The notes under the pieces were generated by a model. That model had not been told where the DNA came from and did no database searches. It worked only from the letters and a program-made list of their open reading frames with translations. This document shows, in pieces, positions 18,087 through 52,590 of a stretch of DNA of 63,130 bases. The DNA is from an uncultured Prevotellaceae bacterium (lineage in GTDB: Bacteria; Bacteroidota; Bacteroidia; Bacteroidales; Bacteroidaceae), in contig CAMHKU010000002.1 in NCBI GenBank assembly GCA_946185805.1, positions 1 to 63,130 on the forward strand, written 5' to 3'. Both the position numbers and the translations under genes were made by a program. Numbering within the stretch: position 1 is the stretch's first letter; each line of letters begins with the position of its first letter.

Positions 18087-18162
18087 TTGTGACTGCGTGT
18101 CCTTTTTGATAAACGATTGTGACTGCGTGTCCTTTTTTGATAAGAGGAACACGCAGTCACAA
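18087..18162. terminator. convergent hairpin terminator with duplicated left arm
   Basis: TTGTGACTGCGTGT (18117-18130) pairs with ACACGCAGTCACAA (18149-18162) to give a 14-base stem between the convergent YkvA and uxuA ends. The left arm with its T-run is present twice, at 18087 and 18117, with a 30-base period, so two alternative stems can form with the single right arm. Confidence 0.8.
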
Positions 18163-30808: not shown

Positions 30809-32053
30809 ATGCTTAACAAGCTCTTTACCCTACTACTCGTGCTTACGGCCCTGCAGGCGCAGGGCCGCAGCCGTGTGTACACCCCTGAGGTGAAGACCTT
30901 GCAGGTAGTTGTCAATCAGGACTGGCTGTCGCCGCCGGTAATGCGCCTGGGCACCGCCGACGTGCTCCATGTGAGCTTCGACGAACTCTCGCACAACTAC
31001 CGGCGCTACGTTTACCACCTGGAGCACTGCGAGGCCGACTGGCAACCCTCCGCCGACATCTTTGAGAGCGACTGGCTCGTAGGTTTCAACGACAACACCA
31101 TCGACGACTACGACAACTCGCTCAACACCACGGTGCTCTACACCCATTACAGCCTGCAGATACCCAACGACCGCTGCCGCCTGAAAATGAGCGGCAACTA
31201 CTGCCTTACCGTCTACGACGAGCAGGAGGGCAGTCTCGATGAGCCTGTGCTCACGGCTGAGTTCAGGGTGGTGGAGCCGCTGATGAATGTCGGCCTGAGC
31301 GTCACTACCAATACCGACGTCGACTTCAACCTCAGTCATCAGCAGGTGTCGATGACGGCTGTCTATAACAGTCTGCAGGTGACTCATGAAGAGGAGCAAC
31401 TGTGGACGGTGGTCACCCAGAACGGGCGTGAAGACACCCAGGTGGCTGGTACACGTCCCACGTCGCTGCAGCTGGGTAAGGCGCAGTGGGAACATTGCCG
31501 CGACTTGATATTCGATGCCGGCAATGAGTATCATAAGTTTGAGGTGCTCGATGTGTCGCATCCTACACTGGGCATCGACCGCATGCGGTGGGACGGCAGC
31601 AACTACCACGCCTTTCCCTTTGCTAATGAGCCCCGGCGCCACTATGTCTACGACGAGGATGCCAACGGCGCCTTCTACATTCGCAACAGCGACAACATTG
31701 AGAACGACCGCACATGCGACTACGTCTACGTGAATTACAAACTCCTTACCGGCCATGAATATCCTGATGCCCACATCGTTGTAGACGGCCAGTGGGCCAC
31801 TGACGACAATGCCGACACTTACCTCATGACCTACGACGAGACCGACCGCAGCTATAATGCCCGCATATTGCAGAAGCAGGGCTATTACTCGTATCAGTAT
31901 CTGCTGTTGACTGCCGACGGCCGCGTCAGACCGATACCCGAGGAGGGCTCGTTCTTTCAGACCGAGAACCGCTATCAGGCCTACGTATATTATAAAGGTA
32001 CGGGCGCGCGCACGTGGCGCCTCGTAGGCTATCAGCAGGTAACACTGAAGTGA
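30809..32053 (+). CDS. DUF5103 protein (type IX secretion plug-like)
   Basis: A 414-residue secreted protein with a signal peptide ending near residue 20. It matches DUF5103, now called the type 9 secretion system plug protein family in Bacteroidota, beta-sandwich proteins associated with the T9SS translocon. Family features include LQVVVNQDWLSPPVMRLG near the N-terminus, the LSHNYRRYVYHLEHCEADWQPS segment and GYYSYQYLLL near the C-terminus. Other T9SS core genes are absent here. It ends 36 bases before mirror element B. Confidence 0.82.
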   Translation: MLNKLFTLLLVLTALQAQGRSRVYTPEVKTLQVVVNQDWLSPPVMRLGTADVLHVSFDELSHNYRRYVYHLEHCEADWQPSADIFESDWLVGFNDNTIDDYDNSLNTTVLYTHYSLQIPNDRCRLKMSGNYCLTVYDEQEGSLDEPVLTAEFRVVEPLMNVGLSVTTNTDVDFNLSHQQVSMTAVYNSLQVTHEEEQLWTVVTQNGREDTQVAGTRPTSLQLGKAQWEHCRDLIFDAGNEYHKFEVLDVSHPTLGIDRMRWDGSNYHAFPFANEPRRHYVYDEDANGAFYIRNSDNIENDRTCDYVYVNYKLLTGHEYPDAHIVVDGQWATDDNADTYLMTYDETDRSYNARILQKQGYYSYQYLLLTADGRVRPIPEEGSFFQTENRYQAYVYYKGTGARTWRLVGYQQVTLK

Positions 32054-32088
32054 CTACCTAGGAACCGCAGCACGGAAAAATAGTTTAT

Positions 32089-32500
32089 TTGATATCCGTC
32101 ATCCGTCAGAATTCTGGATAAAAGGTTGAGCGTTAGGTACTTACGGGCTGACGGATGGTTGGCGGCTGACGGATGGATGATTTTTAGAGCGCTATAGTGC
32201 ATAAATATTCGTAAAAAGGAATATTTATGCATCCGGACGCAGATTTTATCAATATTTCGGAGTTTTTTTGTAAAGAATTCGGAGGCTCTTCAAAAACGGC
32301 GGCCGTTTTGAAAAATTCAGCGGCCGTTTTTGAAAAAACGGCGCGCGTCTTTGGAAAAACAGCGGCCGTTTTCAGTGAATATTTATGCAATTTTTGAAGG
32401 GACTGCTCTTGTTCTGAATAGGATTCCCATCCGTCAGCCTGTAATTTGCTTGCTGTCAGAAAGTTGCGCCGATTGCTGACGGATGACGGATAGCAATCAA
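32089..32500. repeat. mirror-array element B (ATCCGTC/GACGGAT words)
   Basis: Outer words ATCCGTCATCCGTCAG (32094-32109) and CTGACGGATGACGGAT (32476-32491) are perfect complements. Next in each arm comes GGCTGACGGATGG (32146-32158, again 32164-32176) against CCATCCGTCAGCC (32427-32439), then TGCATAAATATTC (32198-32210) against GAATATTTATGCA (32377-32389, with another copy at 32219-32231). Outer-to-middle spacing is 36 bases in both arms and middle-to-inner spacing 39 versus 37, although spacer sequences differ. The core (32290-32372) has four ACGGC/GCCGTTTT palindromic blocks. It fills the gap between two convergent genes. Confidence 0.9.
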
Positions 32501-32514
32501 CTTTTTTCTGGCGG

Positions 32515-34974
32515 TTATTGTTCTTGCGTTTCGCGATATTCGTGAGGCGTCATGCGGTATTTGTGGTAGAACTTAGCTATCAGGTAGTTAGGCGACACGA
32601 AGTCACACTCTACAGCTATCTGCTCTATGCTCATGTCAGTAGTCCTCAGCAGTTCGGCGGCCTTGTCTATGCGGAGCGTGCGCACCAGTGCGCGCGGGCT
32701 CTTGTGGACGTTTTCCAGGATCAGCTCGTAGAGTTCAATCACGCCCATGTTTGTTTCCTGTGACAGCATGTGCATGGTGTAGGGCCGGCCGTGGCGTTCG
32801 TGTATAAAGTCAATGACCTTGAGCATCAGCTCTGTGAAGGCAGGGTTGAGCTCTGAGCGCGATTCGCTTTCGGTGCCGAAGATTTCCTCCTGCGTGGGCG
32901 ACAGCTTCTCGGTGTTGAAGCTGTCTGCGCGGTTGACGAATGAGTTGATGCGGCGTATGACGTCGCCCTCCTCGTTGTTGCGGCGCATCTTCAGGCGGGT
33001 GTTGCGGTTGTAAACGATAAAGTTGAGAATGGCTATGGCCAGCACTATCAGCGTGAAGAGCAGCAGTATGCCTGTAGTGCGCCACCAGGGCTGGTTGACG
33101 TGGATGACCCATTCGTAAGGCTTGCCGGCAAATTTGCCTTGTACGACAGAGGCTATGAGTTCCACGTGATAGGTGCCCGGCTGTATGCCTACCATCGGCA
33201 GGTGCAGCAGTCCTCGTGAGTCAACGAATCCGCCGCCGCCGAAATAGGAGTAGTCTGTCCACTGCTTGCTGATTTCCCGGATGCGCACGCGGTAGTAGGT
33301 TTGCAGCGGACGCGAGAAGTTGAGCGCCGAGAACGTGAGCGAGATGGAGTTCTGGTCGTAGTTGAGGTTAATCTCCTTGACACGGGTGATAGCCTTGTTG
33401 AGCACTACGGAGCCGTTGACCTCGTCGCCGGCATTGACCTCGATACCGTTGACCAGCAGTTTTGTCAGTTTGGGGTGCATGACGTAGGGCTGCTGGTTGA
33501 GCAGTGGCATGAAGTCGCGCGGCTGGAAAGTTACTATGTGGTCAATACTCTGCATCACTATCCGGCCATCGTCGGTCTTCATGGCCTTGGCGTCGACGAA
33601 GGTTTCGTTAGGCACGTTGTCGTCGCTGTTGAAACAGTAGACCTGCTTCACTTCGCCGTCTTCAATGCGCAGGCAGGCTATGCCATAGCTGGTGTTTATC
33701 CAGATGTTGTGGAAGTTGTCTTCAATGACGGCGTGTATCACGCTGTTGAGCAGCCCGTTGGCTCGTGAGTAAATCTTGGGCTCGGCTTGCGGGGTAGTAT
33801 ATAGGTAAAGCCCGTTAGGCGTACCTACCCACGTCCAGTGGCGGCTGTCAACAACCATGACGTTGGCGCGCTTGCCCCTGAATTCGCTGATGCCTTTCAG
33901 TGGCTCCATCTGCCGGAGGTAGTCCTGTGCTTTCGGGTCGGTGATGTTGAGCGATGTGAAGGGCGCGTTGGTGGGGGGGCCGTAGAGCAGTCCGCGCTCT
34001 TCGGTGCCTATCCACATGCCTCCCTGCAGGTCAAACTCCAGGGCGTTGATGTTGGTTTCCAGCTGGCGGCCGTTGTTCAGGGTCAGTGTCTTATGGTGGG
34101 TCATCTCGCCCGTAGCCAGCATATAGGTGTAATAGCCTACTGACGAGGCTATGTAGAGCTTGCCTTCGTAGAGCCTCATGTTGTTGTAGTGCATCCAGGG
34201 CTCTTCGGTGCGCATTATTTCCGTCCATTGGCGGCTGTCTAAGTTGTAGTGCAGCAGCAGGCCGCCGTTGTTGCCGTTGCGGATTATGTAGAAACCGTTG
34301 TCGTGAAGCATCATCACGCCCGACTCCTGGTAGCCCTTGGCCTGTTCGCTGTCGTAGGCTTTGCTCTGGTAGCGTCGTTTGCCGGTGGCCGCGTCGTAGC
34401 TGATAAGCTGACCGTTATCGTAGAACAGTAGCAGCTCCTTTTCATGAACCTCCAAGTCCTGCAGGCTTGCGCCCTTGAGCAGTGCAAGCTTCTTGCCGTA
34501 TTTACGGCTGAAGACATGGCCGTTCTCGCAGAGCCACAGGTCGCCTTTAGAGTCTACGAACATGTCGCCGACCCGCTCTTTGGCACCGTAGAGGCGGAAG
34601 ATGCTGTCGGCATGGATATAGTGCTCGCGCGAGAGGTCCACACAGGTTACCGTCTGCTTGTTTTTCAGCCAGAGGTGGTGGTCGTTGTCGTAATAGAGGT
34701 GGTAGTGGCCATGATAGTCTTCCAGCTTGTAGGTCAGTTCCTCGTTACCGTTGATGTGCGAGAAGTTGGCACCGTCGTAGAAGTTGATGCTGCCGATGGT
34801 GGTGATGGTCATTCGTCCCGTAAAGGTGCACTTGATGGTCTGTGCCGAGTTGTCGGCAATGCCGTTAGAGGCTGTGATGGTGCGGAAAACGCGGTCGTCG
34901 TCGATATCGGCAACGGCGGCGCCTGACCTTAATAATAGCCCGAAAAACAGTAGAACCTTTACGGTTGATTTCAT
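32515..34974 (-). CDS. membrane sensor-regulator: propeller, Y_Y_Y domain, AraC-type HTH
   Basis: The 819-residue protein has a signal peptide, a long periplasmic region with two-component-regulator propeller repeats (for example WIGTEERGLLYG near 315, WVGTPNGLYLY near 375, IWINTSYGIACL near 420), a Y_Y_Y-like domain near 530-625, one transmembrane helix (about residues 635-657, TGILLLFTLIVLAIAILNFI), and a C-terminal AraC-family DNA-binding domain (GVIELYELILENVHKSPRALV...MTPHEYR). The layout is that of hybrid two-component glycan sensors but without histidine kinase or receiver, so signal would pass straight from periplasm to a membrane-tethered HTH. Its promoter is divergent from that of ispE. 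The ligand is unknown. Confidence 0.85.
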   Translation of the reverse strand: MKSTVKVLLFFGLLLRSGAAVADIDDDRVFRTITASNGIADNSAQTIKCTFTGRMTITTIGSINFYDGANFSHINGNEELTYKLEDYHGHYHLYYDNDHHLWLKNKQTVTCVDLSREHYIHADSIFRLYGAKERVGDMFVDSKGDLWLCENGHVFSRKYGKKLALLKGASLQDLEVHEKELLLFYDNGQLISYDAATGKRRYQSKAYDSEQAKGYQESGVMMLHDNGFYIIRNGNNGGLLLHYNLDSRQWTEIMRTEEPWMHYNNMRLYEGKLYIASSVGYYTYMLATGEMTHHKTLTLNNGRQLETNINALEFDLQGGMWIGTEERGLLYGPPTNAPFTSLNITDPKAQDYLRQMEPLKGISEFRGKRANVMVVDSRHWTWVGTPNGLYLYTTPQAEPKIYSRANGLLNSVIHAVIEDNFHNIWINTSYGIACLRIEDGEVKQVYCFNSDDNVPNETFVDAKAMKTDDGRIVMQSIDHIVTFQPRDFMPLLNQQPYVMHPKLTKLLVNGIEVNAGDEVNGSVVLNKAITRVKEINLNYDQNSISLTFSALNFSRPLQTYYRVRIREISKQWTDYSYFGGGGFVDSRGLLHLPMVGIQPGTYHVELIASVVQGKFAGKPYEWVIHVNQPWWRTTGILLLFTLIVLAIAILNFIVYNRNTRLKMRRNNEEGDVIRRINSFVNRADSFNTEKLSPTQEEIFGTESESRSELNPAFTELMLKVIDFIHERHGRPYTMHMLSQETNMGVIELYELILENVHKSPRALVRTLRIDKAAELLRTTDMSIEQIAVECDFVSPNYLIAKFYHKYRMTPHEYRETQEQ

Positions 34975-42621: not shown

Positions 42622-42659
42622 AAAAGTCCCGAAAGATGTACGCATCTTTCGGGACTTTT
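42622..42659 (-). terminator. hairpin terminator after lpxC-fabZ
   Basis: AAAAGTCCCGAAAGATG (42622-42638) pairs perfectly with CATCTTTCGGGACTTTT (42643-42659), a 17-base stem around a four-base loop. It lies 20 bases after the lpxC-fabZ stop codon. The A-run and T-run at the stem base would let it act in either direction. Confidence 0.9.
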
Positions 42660-52204: not shown

Positions 52205-52590
52205 CAAAAAAAATGGCGGTACTTACCTACACTACCTACACTAAACGTTTCACAAGCCTGACACTCAGTATGTTACGCAAAAACAAGCATACACTAAACC
52301 TACACTAAGCCTACACTAAGCCTACACTATGTAGAAAAAAGCTGCACTTTCACATCCCGGGTGGCTGGTGTTTGCTCATGGTCGAAGCGCCCCGTTTTCA
52401 TTACAAAGCCTCTGTAACGGCGTTACAAGGCCTTTGTAACGGAAAAACGGCGCCCGTTTCGGTTATAATAGCGGTAGTGTAGGCTTAGTGTAGGCTTAGT
52501 GTATGCAAGAAATTTGTAATCTCACTGATTATTATCTGGTTACGTCGTTAGTGTAGGTAGTGTAGGCTTTTATGCGATTTTTTTTTGATG
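52205..52590. repeat. mirror-array element C (CCTACACTA/TAGTGTAGG words)
   Basis: The outer words CCTACACTACCTACACTAA (52226-52244) and TTAGTGTAGGTAGTGTAGG (52548-52566) are perfect 19-base complements. Inner arrays follow: GCATACACTAA then three AGCCTACACTA-like units (52287-52329) against the complement with one fewer unit (52475-52506). The outer-to-inner spacer is 42 bases in the left arm and 41 in the right, with little sequence similarity. The core (52392-52457) is quasi-palindromic (TTACAAAGCC, GTAACGGCGTTAC, GGCCTTTGTAA) and is flanked by CCGTTTT/AAAACGG. It lies between divergent genes. Confidence 0.92.

Follow-up and report, generated by a model that had tools for sequence, protein, structure and literature searches.

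Element B, which lies in a 63,130-nt stretch of DNA from an uncultured Prevotellaceae bacterium (the whole of this stretch is called the window), is in our estimate, at a probability of about 0.65, a gene-less insertion that likely belongs to a mobile-element family, the full-size members of which are predicted to be moved by a single VapE-like helicase gene enclosed between mirrored ends made of short words. Judged from the comparisons of sequences described below, it is most likely a non-autonomous member of this family of word-ended VapE elements.

Layout of element B and its relatives in the same genome

The features of element B and of a second element in the window, element C, were as follows (coordinates of the window, strand, description).

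32054 to 32514, no strand: intergenic stretch holding element B, delimited from ORFs, Pfam matches and the congener gap comparison
32093 to 32109, plus: left outer words, ATCCGTC twice in tandem; 17 nt that pair without mismatch with the right outer words
32110 to 32145, no strand: left spacer, 36 nt, conserved poorly among copies
32146 to 32158, minus: left inner word, copy 1, 13 nt, inverted relative to the outer words
32164 to 32176, minus: left inner word, copy 2, repeat of the middle word on the left arm
32198 to 32231, no strand: two A+T-rich boxes of 13 nt in inverted orientation, 8 nt apart
32285 to 32375, no strand: core minisatellite, 21-bp period, blocks AAAACGGC..GCCGTTTT, with matches at other loci
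32376 to 32389, no strand: third A+T-rich box
32427 to 32439, plus: right inner word, 13 nt
32440 to 32475, no strand: right spacer, 36 nt
32476 to 32492, minus: right outer word pair, mirror of 32093-32109
52226 to 52566, no strand: element C, TACACTA words, same grammar as B, core with a 22-bp period
52226 to 52244 and 52548 to 52566: outer words of element C
52287 to 52329 and 52475 to 52506: inner words of element C

By Pfam, the convergent neighbours of element B are a T9SS plug-domain gene on the left and an AraC/two-component-type regulator gene on the right. The layout was scored with a detector of concentric complementary words with matched spacing, which gives one score per chain. 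Element B scored 43 and element C 60, and the rest of the window stayed below 22. Dinucleotide shuffles of the whole window (n = 20) reached at most 20; shuffles of the B intergenic region reached 18 in 2,000 and 20 in 5,000, so that shuffled intergenic sequence did not reproduce the layout. The 21-bp period of the core gave a self-match of 0.66, compared with a mean of 0.37 and a maximum of 0.52 in 300 shuffles. Among copies, the words mostly held 1.3-2.0 bits and the spacers mostly less than 0.7 bits.

An earlier note, made from the window alone, had described three complementary word pairs around B with spacings of 36/36 and 39/37. All three pairs and both spacings were found, the outer pair being 17 nt long instead of the claimed 16. 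Its grammar of three words held for the outer and middle pairs; the middle word occurs twice on the left, and the inner "word" (32198-32210 with 32377-32389) is a box of the core. We counted it as core because it is also present in elements with very different arms, the D elements described below. The exact pattern of the A+T-rich box occurred at 42 sites in the genome, every one at a mapped element locus, and at 2 sites in the control. The idea that the box is a site for ArgR or a recombinase was dropped, as 42 of 42 exact sites lie within elements. A scan with Rfam found no family at the gathering threshold in the window, and no tRNA was found there. Elsewhere in the window, a 21-nt sequence forms two direct copies and one inverted copy at 18087-18162, and a perfect 17-nt hairpin with a 4-nt loop lies at 42622-42659.

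We mapped 42 loci of the repeat family in the same genome and assigned each, by reading the locus, to one of three word sets (B, C and D) or to a core-only group. B words were present at 21 loci (8 with the core and both ends, 3 partial with the core, 6 short without the core and 4 single); the remainder comprised 14 D loci, 3 C loci and 4 with the core only. The tandem ATCCGTC word was found at 33 places with no more than one mismatch, its reversed control at none, and element B as a query gave 111 matches, many of them to the core alone. The TACACTA words of C occur at three loci, the copy in the window, C9 and C72; the neighbours of element C are divergent genes, a lipocalin-like gene and grpE.

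The third arm set, D (ACACCTCTTACACCTGG..), surrounds the same kind of core as B. Its arm was found at 29 sites with up to three mismatches (control, 0), and almost every site has an inverted partner 440-720 bp away. Wherever a D element has both arms (13 of 13), it also has the boxes and blocks of the B core; C shares this core only loosely. The search with the D arm gave two further D sites, C74 and C84, and at C74 both D ends join as one hairpin with nothing in between. D words were 94% identical in pairs and D spacers 70%, in arms that had themselves been found by their words.

The ends of B, C and D thus follow one plan with unrelated words: the outer words are set off from the inner words by a spacer of about 40 nt, the core comes next, and then the mirror image. 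Further word sets occur in congeners. This agrees with the proposal of the earlier note that this is a family with a common layout and different words. The proposal that each member has a word set of its own did not hold: words belong to sub-families, the B word at 21, the D word at 14 and the C word at 3 of the 42 loci. Nor is a core of the type AAAACGG..CCGTTTT general, being common to B and D, loosely shared by C, and giving way to different cores in other species. Concerted evolution of the two arms, hinted at by three D elements, was rejected over 13 elements (within elements 0.713, between elements 0.703, permutation p 0.25).

Several other repeats were also seen. At L334 (11307-12196) in the own genome, a possible extra word set (CCTTCACC) has hairpin ends like those of B around a different core. 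C-rich hairpins (CCCTCCCGAAGGGAGGG) were present in this genome and two congeners (L336 2742-2913, L351 14167-14491, L369 15105-15300). Arrays of a 10-bp unit (TAACTCCTTC), with up to 14 consecutive units and some opposed pairs, lie at L129 5502-5650, L118 564-670, L128 1501-1550 and L432 576-880. The D elements L119, L143 and L146 contain arrays of units resembling TTTTCACT. At L339 (6351-7250), mirrored 15-bp words (CTAGTGAGACTAGTT) lie within ORFs, one of which gains in-frame PSETSY repeats.

Insertion at the B locus and distribution in other genomes

The segment of the window from 31300 to 33400 was searched against 200 genomes of the genus; counting its own genome, 143 matched. Eleven congener loci were aligned at the B gap: six match near both sides, two (L476 and L483) match farther off on the right, and three match on the left only. 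In five of the two-sided loci, the same gene pair is separated by 24, 42, 49, 51 and 56 bp (G067, G013, G197, G203 and G022, respectively), whereas the corresponding distance here is 491-509 bp; the sixth (L482) has 234 bp against 548 in the window. In G188, the match coordinates give a gap of 37 against 484. By this comparison, and because of the five congeners with the narrow gap in particular, element B is inserted DNA of about 450 bp, placed between two convergent genes that have almost no gap in relatives. The ends were checked by eye, and no clear target-site duplication or exact junction was established.

Outside its own genome, the B word was rare: it was found in 3 of 118 other genomes, and the B core in none of the 59 scanned. 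Scans of sequence collections with a 15-nt B word gave at least 119 stretches in genome contigs and 58 in viral contigs, most of which look like chance matches. Twelve word-scan loci were read, nine from the collection scans and three from the scan of 118 genomes. The reversed control of the B word matched 18 times in G093 and 9 times in G118, which belong to other families; perhaps this is another tandem-heptamer repeat. In three named Prevotella-group records (L169, L170 and L183), B-word ends were found around different cores, which indicates that, in the sequences compared, arms and cores combine freely.

The detector gave 8 chains of at least 22 in 398 kb of the own genome and 13 in 598 kb of seven congeners, compared with none in three shuffles per stretch; some of these chains are simply long inverted repeats. 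G024, a complete genome, has two word sets, AGCTACG and CCTCCAC, each of which forms such elements around a minisatellite with a 22-bp period, and clusters of at least four words number 5 and 2 in 200 kb, respectively. A core period of 21-22 bp is therefore present both in the own genome and in G024.

VapE-like genes between mirrored words

Inverted pairs of tandem B words were found at the stop codon of VapE-like genes in three congeners or named records (L095, L167 and L094/L453), and for this reason VapE (PF05272) loci were then examined. In L095, a DUF4248 gene follows the B-word pair. Near VapE genes in G020, G056 and L167, B words form an inverted pair and lie exclusively behind the stop codon, a position that recalls the SaPI origin behind the rep gene. 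VapE-like genes are present in 45 of 70 congeners, and our sample comprised 55 loci, 54 in congeners and the one in the own genome.

No concentric short element was found within 1.5 kb of the VapE domain at 31 loci; the ends sit farther out, and a long-range search around VapE genes was therefore performed. A chain of mirrored words enclosed VapE at 24 of 55 loci, but none of 130 other ORFs of at least 300 aa in the same stretches and 2 of 550 shuffles, at a threshold of 28 that was chosen after the first two of three batches. The third batch did not need the threshold: six of its 16 loci scored 41-69, in the other ten no spanning chain reached 20, and none of 160 shuffles exceeded 25. Of the 24 enclosed loci, one (L418) appears fortuitous, and two (L423 and L448) score close to the threshold. 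In 938 kb sampled irrespective of VapE, there were five long-range chains of 29-33, mostly of low complexity. The earlier note had suggested looking for primase, recombinase or DNA-binding genes that co-occur with the words, and in congeners the space between word ends does contain a gene for a VapE-like helicase, some of these proteins also having a BT4734-like primase domain.

Most enclosed elements measure 1.5-3.2 kb (one is 4.3 kb), and VapE is the sole ORF of at least 70 aa inside 14 of 17 mapped elements. One of them, L414, has the layout of B, with two direct outer words, a spacer and inverted inner words. Words differ among the three VapE elements within each of G024, G045, G055 and G020, with the exception of L428 and L457 in G020, which are alike; similar words recur across genomes (L427/L439, L440/L457 and L450/L458). 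For the VapE element L439, no empty site was found in relatives, where its two flanking genes match separate places.

The remaining 31 of the 55 loci had no detectable mirrored words, and the VapE gene of the own genome (C18) is among them; B is called a likely and not a proven member of the family for that reason. Word hairpins behind VapE genes without mirrored ends were clear for the B word only in L452 and L453 among 31 loci, and L167 is a third case. No VapE gene was found between B ends among the loci examined, nor an autonomous partner for B, C or D in the own genome, the assembly of which is 73.6% complete. The VapE gene of the own genome was rejected as the partner of D; it adjoins a D element, but there are no words on its other side.

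Some further features of these loci were recorded. A small cysteine-containing ORF accompanies the VapE element in L414 (3941-4393) and is DUF6078 by Pfam; similar ORFs, judged by eye, were seen at L423 4086-4541 and beside elements in L424, L440, L445 and L448. G024 also has four VapE genes (L412, L417, L418 and L419), each about 690 aa long, in multi-kb segments that are 91-97% alike and show no detectable mirrored words, and a copy of the 22-bp minisatellite follows each VapE gene.

Copies in which the gene is missing were also found. In G024, L356 is similar to the VapE element L416 at both of its ends, with 90% identity over 438 nt including the VapE start and 80% over 469 nt, and L490 in G007 brings the two ends of the L439 element together, about 1.4 kb between them being absent. 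Judged by these matches, gene-less copies of VapE element ends exist in two congeners. B and C look like products of the same kind of internal gene loss, the classical route to miniature elements.

One VapE query had more than 6,800 relatives. In seven VapE proteins scanned, PF05272 was present in all, DUF3874 behind it in five (two of them below the curated cut-off) and BT4734-like_N in front of it in four. The only significant PDB relative, by sequence and by fold, was the DNA-bound primase-helicase PriRep1-dsDNA (7pds), with a TM of about 0.36 for a VapE model that is weak overall (mean pLDDT 57). The last 85 residues are well predicted, and the order of their helices and strands is, by our reading, that of a winged helix. 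In 15 short forms, the C-terminus was 45% identical, compared with 73% for the helicase domain. Word similarity was correlated with C-terminal identity (Mantel p 0.016), but p was 0.31 after controlling for overall relatedness; in this comparison, the C-terminus did not track the words beyond overall relatedness. PF05272 has been predicted to be the helicase of mobile-element replication, according to the text available of PMC5862659, and the C-terminal domain of SaPI Rep and Cch2 reads origin iterons in the account available from PMC7581432. This precedent of iteron reading makes it plausible, by analogy, that each word is read by a different cognate protein, as the earlier note had supposed.

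From these data we propose the following scheme. VapE, with its AAA+ helicase domain and predicted C-terminal winged helix, would bind at each end to the tandem words that its own family uses, in the way that initiators bind iterons, and helicase rings loaded at the two ends would unwind the element inward. Priming could be performed by the BT4734-like primase domain in the long forms or by the host primase, and the copy of the element, perhaps a folded-back single strand, would be joined into a new intergenic site by some joining enzyme. A short copy like B would depend on a VapE acting in trans that recognises its words, ATCCGTC in this case. The 21-22 bp minisatellite core may be the opening region, or an insulator left from the stretch behind the VapE gene, where the G024 elements carry theirs. 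A broader reading, that these are a class of transposable elements without a classical transposase, with one VapE-like helicase gene between mirrored word arrays, replication from both ends, a word key private to the lineage and gene-less swarms (B and C) on the same key, is tentative, and we would place it slightly below even odds.

Among the alternatives, it is unlikely, if worth serious consideration, that an ordinary transposase moves B as a miniature inverted-repeat element, with the VapE genes as chance passengers between such ends. BrickBuilt and other MITEs of P. gingivalis have internal minisatellites and ends like those of IS5-family elements, as far as PMC4596501 describes them, and dispersal with internal deletion fits any transposon. 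However, the enclosure of VapE at 24 of 55 loci, against 0 of 130 for other genes, argues that VapE is not a random passenger, no other ORF of at least 70 aa is present inside 14 of the 17 mapped VapE elements, and the ends are arrays of tandem words in both orientations, unlike a plain terminal repeat.

That B is a transcription terminator or another element acting at the RNA level, its GC-rich core palindromes stopping transcription from both sides, is considerably less probable. B does sit between convergent genes, four core-only copies lie near gene ends, and B as RNA folds better than its shuffles (z -7.4; 0 of 100 shuffles were as stable). However, crude ORF calls placed 11 of the 42 loci between convergent genes, 17 between genes of the same direction and 8 between divergent genes, with 6 undetermined. 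The occurrence of members between divergent genes also disposes of the possibility, raised in the earlier note, that the region is only a bidirectional terminator. A consensus scan of 32000-32600 gave no terminator-like site, although it required a loop of 3-8 nt and may overlook palindromes of this kind; in congeners the same two genes lack the element, and a terminator leaves the word arrays and the link to VapE unexplained. A fixed protein-binding or chromosome-organising site that is not mobile would account for words far better conserved than spacers, but it is the least probable explanation, as the insertion is missing from the same gene pair in congeners and the word and the core were so rarely found in other genomes (3/118 and 0/59).

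If VapE does drive word-ended elements, as we favour, the consequences would be considerable. VapE/VirE-like genes are very common in gut Bacteroidales and are named merely after virulence-associated protein E, so a large gene family would gain a function that it has lacked, and much of the intergenic tandem-word DNA in these genomes would be explained. The elements would also provide a natural collection of helicase-word pairs for the study of how initiators read DNA, and spread by an initiator helicase instead of a transposase would be a new mode of transposition.

Comparison with known systems

Drosophila Foldback elements have long inverted ends made of short tandem repeats, as the elements here do, but they are eukaryotic and are not known to depend on a related enzyme. 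In bacteria, REP, BIME and REPIN sequences with RAYT are likewise dispersed intergenic palindromes, often in opposed pairs (PMC3733652). REPs, in the portion of that source available, are palindromes of 20-40 bp tagged with GTAG or CGTC, whereas the ends of the present family consist of tandem words of 7-10 bp; the B word contains CGTC as in REP tags, but within 7-bp tandem units. A REPIN driven by a RAYT was considered and rejected: PF01797, the one family covered by the transposase search of the own genome, had no match in that incomplete genome, compared with matches in 5 of 14 control genomes.

BrickBuilt and MITE464/PgRS of Porphyromonas gingivalis resemble B in being dispersed and intergenic in a related order, with a tandem repeat of 23 nt (or 41 nt) inside and inverted ends. 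They are set apart by their description, in which the ends are 12-nt terminal repeats like those of the IS5 family, and the portion of PMC4596501 consulted reports neither tandem-word ends nor a VapE gene. The BT4734-like primases and VirE/VapE (PF05272) ATPases of mobile elements have the same protein domains as the elements here; the available portion of PMC5862659 says nothing of ends coded by words, of elements with a single gene or of copies without one.

No description of VapE genes between word-built ends was found in the parts consulted of the open-access literature. The closest likeness is to SaPI Rep-ori and SCCmec Cch2, in which the helicase loads itself, carries a primase domain in some cases and has short tandem words beside its gene, as outlined in the accessible part of PMC7581432. 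VapE and the Rep families named there did not fall into the same Pfam family by any comparison made. In those systems, by the same partial account, a single origin follows the helicase gene, within a large island that has its own integrase. The word-ended VapE elements, in contrast, have two mirror-image sets of words at their ends, mostly the VapE gene alone between them, and many dispersed copies including gene-less ones.
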